A DNA stretch of 54,152 bases, taken from NCBI GenBank assembly GCA_018820855.1, contig JAHJNL010000019.1:1-54152 (forward strand), given 5' to 3'. This DNA comes from Pseudomonadota bacterium (GTDB taxonomy: Bacteria > Desulfobacterota > Desulfobulbia > Desulfobulbales > Desulfocapsaceae). Shown here one piece after another: positions 17,171 through 22,118 of the stretch. The position numbers were made by a program, and so were the translations under genes. Numbering within the stretch: position 1 is the first letter of the stretch; the number at the start of each line of letters is the position of its first letter. The notes beneath the pieces are model-generated. The model did no database searches. It was not told where the DNA came from and saw nothing but the letters and a program-made list of their open reading frames with translations.

Positions 17171-17611
17171 TCAGTAGAGCTTCTCTCGCAGGTCAGTTAT
17201 CTGAAAGGGGCGAGGCTCAGTCTCGGCGGGCTCGTTATGGAAATGGTTTTCCAATCCGTTTTTCAAAGCGGTCAGCAGTGCTTTTGTCGCCGCAATGAAT
17301 TCAGGGGCATGTTCAGTCCTGTTGAAGGTGGCATGCAGCACAATTTTTTCCGGATATGGCGGATAGCCTGTTGTCACGGTCCAGGCCAGGGCATTAGGGC
17401 AGTCCGGCACGGAAAAGCGTGCACCGCCCATGACCGTTTCCCGCCGGATGTGAAAACGTCCCCAGTGCCGGAAGTAGATGACCCTGTCCAAGGCATCTTC
17501 ATCAGTTACCTCCTCAATCTCCTCGCAAAAAAATGGAAGATTATCGACAGATATTTTATCCCTGATTGTTTCCTGGCTTGTTACAACGTTGGCGTATTCG
17601 AAAAATTCCAT
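17171..17611 (-). CDS. Uncharacterised 146-residue protein, last gene of the CHAT cluster
   Basis: A soluble protein with no signal or membrane segment. The start at 17611 has GAGGAAAC just upstream. It begins MEFFEYANVVTSQETIRDK and is acidic in the middle (FFCEEIEEVTDEDALDRVIYF). A conserved-looking core follows (LAWTVTTGYPPYPEKIVLHA, FNRTEHAPEFIAATKALL) and it ends in an amphipathic helix. No family was recognised. It is read in the same direction as, and 46 bp after, the RyR-domain gene, so it is probably a component of the same CHAT/MPE/DUF4062 module. Sensor, adaptor or effector roles are all possible; the sequence does not distinguish them. Confidence 0.65.
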   Translation of the reverse strand: MEFFEYANVVTSQETIRDKISVDNLPFFCEEIEEVTDEDALDRVIYFRHWGRFHIRRETVMGGARFSVPDCPNALAWTVTTGYPPYPEKIVLHATFNRTEHAPEFIAATKALLTALKNGLENHFHNEPAETEPRPFQITDLREKLY

Positions 17612-17657
17612 GTTGTTTCCTCTGAGAATCTGTCTTCTGCGGAGGTTATAAGAAAAA

Positions 17658-17975
17658 TCACTGTTGAAGGATTCCCAGTCTGATCAGTTCTGCCACGATC
17701 GCTTTGGCACCCGCCACATCGATTTGTTTTTCCGCTTCCGTGAGGTGTTCATACGGAACAAGACCAGGATGAAGCTTCCTGGCGTCATCACGCTGTGTCC
17801 CGTAGCGCCAACCCTGGGAAATTCTCTCCGTTGCCCACTGATCATGGTTGACCTTGGCGATTGCCTGCACAGTGTCGCCCATGACCCCTGCAGCCTGTGC
17901 CAGTTCATCGCGGCTCGCGATTCGCGGCTCGTAGTCGCCGAAAGGGGTCTCAATCTTTTGTCTTGTCGTACTCAA
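17658..17975 (-). CDS. RyR-domain protein
   Basis: About 105 residues, essentially a single RyR domain (PF02026 type, first known from ryanodine receptors). The core reads AKVNHDQWATERISQGWRYG, then QRDDARKLHPGLVPYEHLTE, EKQIDVAGAKAIVAELIRLG, which matches the N-H-D-x-W-A, GWxYG, RDD and K-x-HP-x-LVPY signatures. The start is taken as TTG at 17975, because AAAGGAG lies 5 nt upstream and the longer ATG version (18023) has no ribosome site. Established knowledge: prokaryotic RyR domains occur in predicted conflict and signalling systems and are suspected ligand-binding modules. Lying between a CHAT protease gene and an unknown gene, it probably senses or binds a signal for the cluster. That role is inferred. 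Confidence 0.8.
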   Translation of the reverse strand: MSTTRQKIETPFGDYEPRIASRDELAQAAGVMGDTVQAIAKVNHDQWATERISQGWRYGTQRDDARKLHPGLVPYEHLTEAEKQIDVAGAKAIVAELIRLGILQQ

Positions 17976-18101
17976 GAATTCTCCTTTGTCCGGTTGTTTC
18001 CTACCATGGTCCCTTGCCCGCAACTCCTTTGTATCTGCAGCTGACCATGAAAGGGGTTCAGGAGGCGCCGCTTCCAGGTCTGATGAACATGTGATGATAT
18101 A

Positions 18102-20042
18102 TTACTGTGAACCGAGCGCGTCAAGGGCTGCCCTGGCCAGATCATCCCATTTCTCCTGTTTCCAGATATCGACATAGCGGCGGAACTGCCGCACGGTTGA
18201 TTGTACGGGAAAATCATGCGGACCGTAAATTTCCAGAATTTCCTTGCAGTAATGGCTGATTGTCTCTTTCGCTTTCTCTGCATCGTATTTCCTGCCTCCA
18301 TAAAGAGCGCCCAGCATCTCCAGTTCAGCAAGCGTTCCGTAGGCCCAGGCCCGGTCTATCCCCACTGCTGTGGGCAACTGCCAGTGGCTGATTTGTTGAG
18401 CTGCGTTCCACCAGTAGCCATACTCTTTTGCCAACCCGGACAGAGCACCGCCTTCTGTCAGCTTGGTGACCGCCAGCATTGACAGATATTGGGTGATAAC
18501 CCAGTGATTGGAGATATCGGCCTCGATGGCCTTTCTGTAGAAGTGACAGGATTTTTGATAGGCGTCCAGTCGTTCTTGTTTCTTGTCGGAGACCAGCTCA
18601 TAGGCGATGCCGATCCGTTTTTCACTGGCAGCGCTGACGCCCAGACGTTCGGTAAATTCCTTTCCGCAGGATTGCGCCTCGGGTTCTTCCCGCCATGCCT
18701 GAAGTTCCCGACGGATGGCATCACAGAGATCACCTATCTCCGGTGATAACGTTTGCTTATCGTGATCGTTGGATTCTTTTTCCTTGAGCAGATCGTCAAT
18801 TCGTTCGAATTTGGTTTCGATACGTCCGCGGGTCTGTTTGTCGCGAAAATCGCTGACCTGTTTTTCAAAATTCCAGGGCACGGTTGCATAGGCCACAATA
18901 CTTGCCCAGTCATGCGTCTCCGGGCAGGAGGTGCGCAGTCGCTGCCGCAATTCATGGAGGACGCAGCGGGGATCGGCTCCTTTGAGCAGACGTTTGTAGA
19001 GTACTTCGGTGAAGATGTTCGAGGAACGCATCCACAGGGGAAACTGCGAGGCGAAAACCCAGGGGATGCCGGCTGCGTGCAATTCGTGAGCTATGCTGCC
19101 GCCGGGGGTGAGGACGGACTTCACATTTGCGGAATCACAGGTAGCAAGAGAGAGTATGGTGGGCCGATTTCGGGTGCCGCAGGTCAGGGCGCGGTCTGTT
19201 GTGAGGGCGATGGCCAGTCGTTCGCCGTCAACCACATCGACCTCTGCCGGGTTTGTGCTGCTGCACAGGGCCAGGCCGTAGCGCTGTTCTCCGGCCTGGG
19301 TATAGGCGGCGCCATGGGCAAGGATATGGACATGAGTGTATTCGGTATCCATGCAGGTCTGTCGGATTTGTTCAAGCGTTGCCTCCGGCAGTATGGTGAG
19401 GATTTTTTTCACCTCGGTCAGGCGCTCTTCCTCACTGTTCTTGATTTTCACCCACGGGTCAATGGCCCGGCGCAGGGCGACAAGATGCTGCTTGGCCGGC
19501 ACCGAGGCCAATCCGTCGGGCGAGGCAAAGATAAAGAGGATACGGGGCGGACGATTCCACTCCACCGGCAGCGGCCGGCCGCGACGCACCTCCCTGGTCA
19601 GGGTGATGGGGGTCTTTGATTGCAGAAAAAGCGGCGAGCCGGAGCCGGGAAAACCATCCGGGGCGATGGCTGTTTCAAAGGGCAAAAGAGCAAGTTCGAA
19701 GGCGGACAGCGACAGCCGTAGATGCACGAACTTTCCTTTCTGGCTGCGGACACTGCCGAGTTCGGTAAGCAGTGCGGGAACCTGGCCGAACATCTGTCCG
19801 ATGATCTCGCCCAATTCGCGCAGCTCGGCCTCACGTTGATTGGGGGCAACAACTGTTCCTTCTGTGTAATAGCGGAGCCGTTCCAGGCGGACGCGCAACT
19901 GCCGCTGTTCAAAGGGCAGGCTCACGGTCACCGGTCCGTCGGCACCGCAGAGGACGAGGTAGGGGGTGAGTGGAGAAAGGAGCTGGTTGTGCGCCGGGCC
20001 GGGTCGCAGTATTTCCAGTTTGACGTTGTGGATGTCTGACAT
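18102..20042 (-). CDS. CHAT-domain (caspase-like) protease with C-terminal TPR-like region
   Basis: 646 residues, cytoplasmic. The CHAT peptidase fold spans about residues 160-395: the catalytic His is in YTHVHILAHGAAY and the catalytic Cys in ILSLATCDSANV, followed by GSIAHELHAAGIPWVFASQF, the usual post-Cys helix. The N-terminal 150 residues are a CHAT-associated beta-rich domain (VTVSLPFEQRQLRVRLERL). After a charged linker (about 410-440) the C-terminus is helical (YQKSCHFYRKAIEADISNHW, TQYLSMLAV), resembling TPR-S/MAP3K-TRAF-type sensor repeats found in conflict systems. The start has GAGGTG 5 nt upstream and the gene begins 4 bp after the phosphoesterase stop, so they are translationally linked. 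CHAT enzymes of other systems cleave a partner to trigger an effector; here no pore-forming partner is obvious. Confidence 0.85.
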   Translation of the reverse strand: MSDIHNVKLEILRPGPAHNQLLSPLTPYLVLCGADGPVTVSLPFEQRQLRVRLERLRYYTEGTVVAPNQREAELRELGEIIGQMFGQVPALLTELGSVRSQKGKFVHLRLSLSAFELALLPFETAIAPDGFPGSGSPLFLQSKTPITLTREVRRGRPLPVEWNRPPRILFIFASPDGLASVPAKQHLVALRRAIDPWVKIKNSEEERLTEVKKILTILPEATLEQIRQTCMDTEYTHVHILAHGAAYTQAGEQRYGLALCSSTNPAEVDVVDGERLAIALTTDRALTCGTRNRPTILSLATCDSANVKSVLTPGGSIAHELHAAGIPWVFASQFPLWMRSSNIFTEVLYKRLLKGADPRCVLHELRQRLRTSCPETHDWASIVAYATVPWNFEKQVSDFRDKQTRGRIETKFERIDDLLKEKESNDHDKQTLSPEIGDLCDAIRRELQAWREEPEAQSCGKEFTERLGVSAASEKRIGIAYELVSDKKQERLDAYQKSCHFYRKAIEADISNHWVITQYLSMLAVTKLTEGGALSGLAKEYGYWWNAAQQISHWQLPTAVGIDRAWAYGTLAELEMLGALYGGRKYDAEKAKETISHYCKEILEIYGPHDFPVQSTVRQFRRYVDIWKQEKWDDLARAALDALGSQ

Positions 20043-20046
20043 TTTT

Positions 20047-21531
20047 TCACCTCGTGAACTGTTTGATGATCTTGCGACTGATGGACTGGGTTCCTTCTAT
20101 GTGGGCCAGTTCGCCGATCACTGTTCCGTCTTTGGCGGTCTTGATGCAGACAGCGCTCTGCTGAGGGAGGACAAAATTAAACTCGGCCTCGTCTATGTCC
20201 TTCATTTTGCCACTGACGAGCAGGTCATACACCGGTTTAAAACTCTCTTCGTCTTTCAGCATCGCTTCTGTGAAGCGGAGCAGACGGATCCAGGTGCCGC
20301 AATTGAAGTAAAAACGATTGCCGCCAAGATCAATGGCCCGTTCGAGATGGGTGTGACCGGTAACGAGGAAATGGATATCCTGGCCTATGGAGTCAAGCAC
20401 CTCCTTGCAGGTGTCATCCTTATCCGTTATGTCGAAGGTCTTGTCATCCTTGAGCCAGTCCTGCAGCGCCCGGCGCAGGGCCTCGATCTTGCTGACGCCG
20501 GTGAACCAGCGGGTAAGCCGGTCCCAAAGATACTGGTTGGTGCCCAATGTCTTGTCCTGGGGGTCGGTGACGGCGCTACCGTTCTTATATTCCTTTTCTG
20601 CCGCGAGCAGCAGGGAATCGGCGCTGGGCCGGTTACCGTCCGCGCCGCTGCGCAGTCCGGCCATGAGATTCGGACCGAGCAGGCTGTCCACAGAGGCGGG
20701 TTGGGAGGGTTTACCGGTCGGGGAGGTGAAGCCCTCTGCGAAAAGTCGCTGGTCAACCTCTATACTGCCTTTCGCCTTTTCTCCAATGACAGGGATAAGC
20801 CGATTTATCTTGCTGAGCTGGTTGGGATCAAGGGCAAGAAGTACGCCGACCGCGGCCTGCATCTCAGGTTTTAACAGGTCGATCCAGGGGTATCGCCCTT
20901 TCACGGTGTTCATGACATCCTTGACCATCTTGGTACCGGCGTTGGGTTCCCATTCCTCGGCCTTGAGACTGCGGCCGGTGTTCAGTCGCCGGCCCGCCTT
21001 GGCGAGATCCTCATAACGGGTATAGTTCCAGGAGTCCACCTCGTTGCCGTGGGTGCAGAACACCCGCGATTCCCCCACCAGGCAGGAGTATCCGGCCCCC
21101 ATGGTGGAAAACTCGATGCGGCCTCGGGCTGTTGGGTCGGTATCGGCGAGTCGTTTGACAACCGCACGTTGCACCACGGGAAAGGACATCTCAAGGTCGT
21201 GGTTGCCGAGCGCAATGACCAGGGTGCGTCCTTTGATTTTCACAAATTTCGCAAGGGCGTCCCAGATCGGGGCAAAGGAGGGGTCTTTCATGATCCGTTG
21301 AATGACGGCCTCGGCATGGTCCACGACGATGTAGCCGTCGTTCTTTTCGGCCAGGGTGTCGATGACGTCGCCGTTCAGGACCAGGGCCACTTTGCCGTCC
21401 GGCCGCTGCTCTGCGACCCAACTGATGTATCCTGCCAGCTTCTCGGTTTCGCGAAGAATCTGAAAACCGGCTTCACCTCCCATGTGGAGGTCGGAGATGA
21501 TATGAACTTCGTCGTAGTGGGGGAAGGGCAT
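20047..21531 (-). CDS. Calcineurin-like metallophosphoesterase of the CHAT cluster
   Basis: 494 residues, cytoplasmic. All core metal-binding motifs are present in order: ISDLHMGG (about residues 12-19), NGDVID (about 53-58), LGNHDLE (about 107-113), FCTHGNEVD (about 157-165) and VTGHTHLERA (about 390-399). About 200 residues between the fourth and fifth motifs are an insert unlike small phosphodiesterases and may give specificity. Expected activity is a metal-dependent phosphodiesterase or phosphatase on a nucleotide or phosphoprotein. Fusions and neighbours of this type with CHAT and DUF4062 proteins occur in predicted NTP- or nucleotide-dependent conflict systems. The start has AAGGAG 7 nt upstream. 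It is the middle gene of the cluster, 4 bp before the CHAT gene. Confidence 0.85.
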   Translation of the reverse strand: MPFPHYDEVHIISDLHMGGEAGFQILRETEKLAGYISWVAEQRPDGKVALVLNGDVIDTLAEKNDGYIVVDHAEAVIQRIMKDPSFAPIWDALAKFVKIKGRTLVIALGNHDLEMSFPVVQRAVVKRLADTDPTARGRIEFSTMGAGYSCLVGESRVFCTHGNEVDSWNYTRYEDLAKAGRRLNTGRSLKAEEWEPNAGTKMVKDVMNTVKGRYPWIDLLKPEMQAAVGVLLALDPNQLSKINRLIPVIGEKAKGSIEVDQRLFAEGFTSPTGKPSQPASVDSLLGPNLMAGLRSGADGNRPSADSLLLAAEKEYKNGSAVTDPQDKTLGTNQYLWDRLTRWFTGVSKIEALRRALQDWLKDDKTFDITDKDDTCKEVLDSIGQDIHFLVTGHTHLERAIDLGGNRFYFNCGTWIRLLRFTEAMLKDEESFKPVYDLLVSGKMKDIDEAEFNFVLPQQSAVCIKTAKDGTVIGELAHIEGTQSISRKIIKQFTR

Positions 21532-21585
21532 TGGAGTTCTCCTTGGAACAGAGGGTTGTGATGTTTACCGGTCAGTGTGGACTGA

Positions 21586-22118
21586 TCAGGGCTTTGTCTT
21601 CTCCTTGCAGATCGTAACGCAGATTCCACGGTCTTTTTGAGCGGGTTGGACCATGGCTTGTTGCCGGGGGGATAGGTCGCGGCTGGTTAAAGACTCGCGA
21701 ATAAGGTCTTGCAGTTCTTGCAGGGAATGGAACTCGCGGCGGAGAACGCCGATGTCCCAGTTCTGCACCTTATCGAGGAAAGTCTGCTGGCGTGGTTCGG
21801 TAGCCTCGTCTTCTATTCGGTCAATGAAAGCATAAATTGGTTTGTGGAGTTCGCGGGCACGCTCGTATTCCTCCTCGGTCGGCGATAACCCTTTCTGGGC
21901 ACCGGTCCAGCCGTAGCGAGGTCCGTAGATGCTGATCATGGCCTGGCAGCCCTGATGGTATCATTGAGTATGATGTCACGCGGTGCTTCACAGGAGGCAT
22001 TCAGTGTTTCAGCCAGTACCTGTTCCATGCCAAGAGCTTGGATCACCCCCTCGGCTGCCTTTCTGCGGTCTTCGTAGGCACGCATAACTGAGCTGATGAA
22101 AACGCGTTGCCGTCGCAT
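21586..22118 (-). pseudogene. DUF4062-domain protein, interrupted by a frameshift at about 21940
   Basis: The first frame starts at 22118 (AAGGAG 10 nt upstream) with MRRQRVFISSVM, AYEDRRKAAEGVIQALGMEQ and SCEAPRDIILNDTIRAARP, then stops. The second frame begins MISIYGPRYGWTG and continues GLSPTEEEYERARELHKPIYAFIDR to 21586. Together they are one DUF4062 domain, whose family reads VFISSxxxDLxxER...YxGIxGxRYGW...THEEYxxAxxxxKPI. The break is at an ATGA overlap (21936-21942 region), so the two halves are +1/-1 related. Options are a deletion making a pseudogene, a sequencing error, a programmed frameshift, or two coupled polypeptides. DUF4062 has a TIR/Rossmann-like fold used as an effector or effector-associated module in conflict systems. 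It is the first gene of the cluster, 54 bp before the phosphoesterase. Confidence 0.75.

Follow-up and report, generated by a model that had tools for sequence, protein, structure and literature searches.

CHAT proteases are caspase-like enzymes, known mainly from CRISPR-linked, CBASS-linked or gasdermin-linked systems. Here we describe a CHAT gene that directly follows the gene of a calcineurin-like metallophosphoesterase (MPE) in a stretch of 54,152 nucleotides, contig JAHJNL010000019.1 of a Pseudomonadota bacterium from the Desulfocapsaceae (assembly GCA_018820855.1); this whole stretch is referred to as the window. A preliminary description of the window, made from its sequence alone, had proposed that five neighbouring genes form one conflict system. 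Comparison with related genomes indicates that the conserved unit is a two-gene MPE-CHAT operon, not the five-part system. The two genes are:

20047..21531, minus strand: calcineurin-like metallophosphoesterase (MPE), 494 residues, first gene of the pair (Pfam Metallophos, 7.9e-8)
18102..20042, minus strand: CHAT (caspase-like) protease with a C-terminal TPR-S-like region, 646 residues, second gene of the pair (Pfam CHAT, 1.8e-23)

Among the described systems that come closest are the SAVED-CHAT proteases (PADLOC SAVED_CHAT), ancillary proteins of CBASS and type III CRISPR. Like them, the window CHAT protein has an N-terminal CHAT domain followed by a C-terminal sensor-like region, and it matches the CHAT part of model PDLC02016 at 6e-12. 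Unlike them, it has no SAVED match but a TPR-S-like tail, and its partner is a phosphoesterase in its own operon. In a Pfam scan of 41 CHAT members that matched 32 families, SAVED is not among the 25 families listed.

TPR-S conflict systems are reportedly the subject of work by Burroughs and Aravind from 2020, in which TPR-S is said to be proposed as a sensor of NAD+-derived signals. The CHAT family resembles these systems in that 26 of 41 relatives match TPR-S at E<=1 (best 2.4e-6), and in that TPR-S proteins adjoin the pair in two loci, L051 and L064; the window copy differs in falling below the TPR-S cut-off. In Csx29, the TPR-CHAT protein of Craspase (type III-E CRISPR), the order of TPR and CHAT is not that of the window protein, where the TPR-like region comes after CHAT. 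Craspase is similar in that it combines CHAT with TPR repeats and works together with another enzyme, as described in PMC9729208; the window has no gRAMP gene. Further, calcineurin-like domains are placed among conflict effectors in PMC8195603, and both CHAT and PF00149 are listed among the domains of hypervariable conflict targets in PMC10907252.

MPE-CHAT is not named as a system by any model of Pfam, PADLOC or NCBIfam. With PADLOC 2.0.0 the MPE has no match and CHAT is recognized only as SAVED_CHAT, through its CHAT domain, so that the two genes are not assigned to one system; neither is named by NCBIfam. Our literature search found no description of the pair, though an earlier listing may exist. 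In PDB profile searches CHAT did not match the solved CHAT structures, and the search with MPE was likewise unproductive.

The MPE-CHAT pair

A profile scan of genome contigs for MPE gave 46 loci, and in 42 of these CHAT is found directly downstream. The remaining four are two contigs that end inside MPE (L058 and L060), one broken MPE with no CHAT (L057) and one archaeal match of 26% identity (L062). The gene order of the window thus recurs far beyond this genome as far as MPE and CHAT are concerned, while the set of five genes does not. The distance from the MPE stop to the CHAT start has a median of 1 nt and is at most 30 nt in 37 of 41 loci (starts chosen by script; L008, L063 and L064 left out). 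In the window it is 4 nt.

Both proteins are clear members of their families. The window MPE scores 33.4 bits against calcineurin-like phosphoesterases (PF00149, cut-off 21.5), which all 43 family members match, and CHAT scores 83.9 bits against PF12770 (cut-off 24). The metal motifs of the MPE had been pointed out in the preliminary description, as had an intact His (in HILAHG) and Cys (in ATCDSA) in CHAT, and the alignments bear this out. The metal ligands D14, H16, D55, N110, H111, H161, H393 and H395 are invariant (45-48 ungapped of 48 rows), as are the catalytic residues H243 (45/45) and C302 (44/44) in 45 aligned CHAT rows. Left out of these alignments were L017, L019 and L054, duplicates on the contigs of L006, L007 and L008, as well as L062 with its 26% identity.

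Among close relatives, the ratio of nonsynonymous to synonymous substitution rates (dN/dS) shows purifying selection on MPE (0.16-0.19) and CHAT (0.11-0.16), and also on the RyR-domain protein encoded next to them (0.13-0.23). Pairwise distances of MPE and CHAT are correlated with r 0.93 (n=43), a value reached in none of 2000 permutations (maximum 0.45), but one that is raised by shared ancestry alone. The least conserved long stretch of the MPE comprises residues 241-320 (variable to about 330). It holds short conserved islands, for instance QRLSAEG, and Leu263 is present in 45 of 45 sequences; such a pattern might be expected of a site for docking or cleavage.

A second hydrolase fold with CHAT

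To avoid the bias of loci that were found through MPE, we also used CHAT as the query. The profile was built from 41 CHAT rows, all from MPE-led loci, and searched in plasmids, in 121 genomes from the order of genome G442, in 398 from its phylum and in 294 from the phylum of G449. Genome searches were made at E<=1e-30, and in the two larger sets scoring was confined to 3-4 candidates per genome; copies may thus have escaped this census. Among the matches listed there are 24 distinct homologues: 8 on plasmids, and 10, 2 further and 4 in the genomes. The plasmid count leaves out a Tolypothrix record (43% coverage), and seven of its eight homologues are from Paraburkholderia and hence not independent.

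An MPE lies directly upstream of CHAT in 21 of the 24, judged by coordinates or a search for open reading frames (ORFs); in one of the genomes, G774, its frame appears interrupted near the start. The other three have no adjacent MPE. Their CHAT protein carries a fused C-terminal domain of the metallo-beta-lactamase (MBL) fold, with Lactamase_B matches of 3e-7 to 6e-6 and an HxDxDH motif, and is 1049-1078 residues long:

L082, 3784-7017: CHAT-TPR-like protein with fused C-terminal MBL domain
L083, 3999-7235: CHAT-TPR-like protein with fused C-terminal MBL domain
L084, 5166-8315: CHAT-TPR-like protein with fused C-terminal MBL domain

None of the 24 has neither partner, so this protease appears always to be accompanied by a metal-dependent hydrolase.

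Relatives of the fused MBL domain occur in 66 plasmid records. In all four plasmids inspected, an annotated caspase gene adjoins the MBL relative or lies one gene off; the caspase has Pfam support in both proteins tested, and the MBL protein exceeds the Lactamase_B cut-off in one of three. These operons resemble the pair in joining a gene for a caspase-like protease with a metallohydrolase, here one homologous to the MBL domain of L082-L084. They differ in having a Peptidase_C14 caspase instead of CHAT and in consisting of two or three separate genes. What we find most telling is the repeated coupling of a caspase-fold protease with a metal-dependent hydrolase, which can have one or the other of two unrelated folds. 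The replacement of MPE by a fused MBL narrows the role of the hydrolase to something that both folds can do. If the protease always travels with a hydrolase, the pair offers a small two-gene system for a direct test of a protease-effector partnership.

Distribution and mobility

The MPE is sparsely distributed. It is present in 4 of 56 relatives and in 8 of 121 genomes from the order of G442, and among 395 genomes of the phylum only the own genome has a strong match; eight further ones are weak, partial matches (E 7e-11 to 7e-4). Further, copies of MPE-CHAT are found on eight plasmid records. A quick maximum likelihood tree of 43 concatenated pairs has rows labelled Thermodesulfobacteriota, Pseudomonadota, Planctomycetota and Acidobacteriota (L046 and L052 were left out, besides the rows dropped from the alignments). 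In this tree Candidatus Loosdrechtia, a planctomycete, groups with Methylocaldum (SH-aLRT 100), and a Shewanella is nested within Rheinheimera. Horizontal spread of the pair is well supported.

On one of the plasmids, a 37.6-kb record from Methylobacterium (L063, 9186-14084), the pair lies near genes for a Dam-type methyltransferase, a second metallophosphoesterase and an ORC-CDC6-like ATPase. In the window, the GC content at third codon positions is 0.715 for MPE, the highest of the 13 genes measured, and 0.643 for CHAT, which is compatible with acquisition.

The other genes of the window

The transcription order on the minus strand is a broken DUF4062 gene, MPE, CHAT, RyR and an ORF of 146 residues. 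Besides the pair, the features are:

17658..17975, minus strand: RyR-domain protein, 105 residues from a TTG start, clade-specific third gene (Pfam RyR, 5.9e-19)
21586..22118, minus strand: DUF4062 pseudogene (frameshift and internal deletion), decayed former neighbour; two frames, each with a partial DUF4062 match
17171..17611, minus strand: ORF of 146 residues; nothing above the Pfam cut-off, no NCBIfam name

The preliminary description had seen five same-strand genes here with gaps of 4 to 126 nt. MPE, CHAT, RyR and the 146-residue ORF are indeed where it placed them, with 126 nt between CHAT and RyR, and the last of them still has no confident Pfam family; the DUF4062 gene, which it counted among the five, is not intact. 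It is split over two overlapping frames, 22118-21936 and 21939-21586, and no single frame runs through the domain (PF13271). An intact DUF4062 protein of 308 residues is encoded upstream of MPE in L007, from a genome of the same genus (G006), followed by a gene for a 379-residue receiver/kinase-like protein and then MPE-CHAT-RyR. Aligned to this protein, the window sequence covers residues 1-56 and 287-305 in one frame and 58-154 in another. There is thus a frameshift past residue 56, together with a loss of residues 155-286, which rules out one intact gene. Two real genes overlapping at ATGA were considered too, and this was not adopted because the halves align in register to one protein with a large stretch missing. 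In another close relative, L006, only a remnant of 35 residues is left (residues 192-226, 60% identity). The sequence in the window is thus a pseudogene, what is left of a former neighbour.

The 146-residue ORF has relatives in four of the 60 genomes of the family, its own included, at five places, its own genome holding a further copy (C66). No MPE or CHAT is found in the 3.0-3.4 kb surrounding the four other copies, and the gene is absent after RyR in L006 and L007. Because its relatives sit elsewhere without MPE-CHAT, it is independent of the pair, a passenger and unrelated neighbour.

Proposed mechanism and alternatives

Our best reading, tentatively held, is that MPE-CHAT is a mobile two-gene module, probably of biological-conflict type (immunity or self-limiting), in which the protease gates the phosphoesterase. 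A signal of invasion or stress would reach CHAT through its TPR-S-like region or through a locus-specific accessory sensor, which in the clade of the window may be RyR. The cysteine protease would then switch on and act on MPE, in the simplest case by cleaving it within its variable part at about 241-330, and the freed metal-dependent phosphoesterase would attack nucleotides or nucleic acids. The partnership is the best-supported part of this scheme; what we infer is its role in conflict, the signal, which partner acts on the other and the substrate.

The genes beside the pair bear on the conflict role. In L018 a TIR protein (TIR_2 8.9e-14; NACHT below its cut-off) is encoded 25 nt upstream, in L041 a TIR gene lies near the pair, in L047 ThsB- and ThsA-type Thoeris genes follow it, and L064 has SIR2-TIR and nSTAND1 proteins in addition to its TPR-S protein. 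In one planctomycete lineage MPE-CHAT is directly preceded by an RdrB-like gene (PADLOC 6.4e-27) together with a large gene of AAA type (L056, 1893-7953), the RdrB-like stop being 14 nt before the MPE start. This is reminiscent of RADAR (RdrA-RdrB), but no RdrA match was obtained with PADLOC. RADAR was considered as a repeated partner, but L060 is near-identical there, and the two proved near-copies from a single lineage.

Several observations weigh against the conflict reading or against parts of it. In an enrichment test over 36 genomes with 219 TIR_2 and 39 TPR-S matches, TIR_2 occurs twice in the flanks (L018 and L041, by Pfam scan of the loci) with 0.51 expected (P 0.092), and TPR-S once (L051) with 0.10 expected (P 0.093). 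Many pairs lie among ordinary genes. The window's own is one of them: the surrounding ORFs encode an MFS transporter, a lytic transglycosylase, signalling proteins, an rlmKL-like protein and amino-acid transport, and do not resemble a defence island. In ten loci (L026, L027, L030-L034, L037, L038 and L059) MPE is immediately preceded by a gene for a GMC oxidoreductase, and such lipid-type neighbours suggest another context. No MPE match was found in phage records or viral contigs. The tail of the window CHAT reaches 17.1 bits against TPR-S (PF20308, cut-off 27.6; E 0.0088), and hhalign of the tail with two TPR-S proteins gives a probability of 1.1 percent (E 0.05); the TPR-like tail of the preliminary description resembles TPR-S weakly in this copy. 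Finally, the ancestry component of the distance correlation enters here. Since the enrichment is not significant and lipid-type or ordinary neighbours are found elsewhere, the link of the pair to defence is only suggestive. The conflict system first proposed finds support in the widespread MPE-CHAT operon with its intact catalytic residues, in its patchy, mobile distribution and in the defence-type genes beside some copies; the excess of such genes is not significant (P about 0.09).

The main rival reverses the roles of the two proteins. CHAT would be the effector and its TPR-S-like region a nucleotide sensor, and MPE or the fused MBL would hydrolyse the activating nucleotide, keeping the protease off or resetting it. 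The exchange of two unrelated metallohydrolase folds fits a shared small-molecule substrate, some pairs have SIR2, TIR and TPR-S genes as neighbours, and calcineurin-like and TIR/DRHyd domains are grouped as nucleotide- and NAD+-processing in PMC8195603. Most pairs, however, have no linked gene that would produce a nucleotide, and the TPR-S assignment is weak; we consider signal quenching unlikely, if worth keeping in mind. That the pair has nothing to do with immunity, but is an accessory gene set forming a regulated module for stress or lipid remodelling, would agree with the ordinary neighbours of many pairs and with the GMC loci, most of which also have patatin, acetoacetate-decarboxylase-like and alpha/beta-hydrolase genes. 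These loci all come from a single region of the tree; the remaining 33 of its 43 rows lack the lipid context, and the distribution of the pair is patchy. Further, the GMC gene is found in 19 of 121 genomes and MPE in 8, the two being adjacent by coordinates only in G442. We considered whether the lipid-enzyme cassette belongs to the system, but it is confined to that region, and where its GMC gene occurs the pair is mostly missing. We find a non-immune module of this kind quite improbable.

The five-part system of the preliminary description, with RyR or TPR as the sensor, CHAT as the cleaving enzyme, MPE or DUF4062 as the acting part and the 146-residue protein as a further component, has in its favour the same-strand order in the window and the intact DUF4062 gene upstream of MPE-CHAT-RyR in L007, there with the 379-residue gene in between. 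The broken DUF4062 and the independent 146-residue family refute it as a full five-gene system: DUF4062 is a remnant in L006, its place is taken by the TIR gene in L018, and the exact combination is intact in none of the loci examined. We regard it as highly implausible.

A protease-gated phosphoesterase could also be one form of something more general. It is possible, though somewhat doubtful, that immune modules of a so far unnamed general class share a lasting union of a caspase-fold protease with a metal-dependent phosphohydrolase. MPE-CHAT would be the form in trans and CHAT-TPR-MBL the form in cis, and the operons of caspase and MBL genes would be a third. The sensors would be exchangeable, bacterial RyR among them, and the protease would gate the hydrolase or be gated by it.

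RyR-domain proteins

The RyR protein of the window, already recognized as such in the preliminary description, scores 68.6 bits against PF02026 (cut-off 27.4). In the clade of the window an RyR gene follows CHAT in all four loci (the window, L006, L007 and L018), and outside it RyR is found only in L024, on the opposite strand. This clade is thus a defined setting for asking what a bacterial RyR domain senses. Among the relatives of the window protein in the PDB is the bacterial structure 3nrt.

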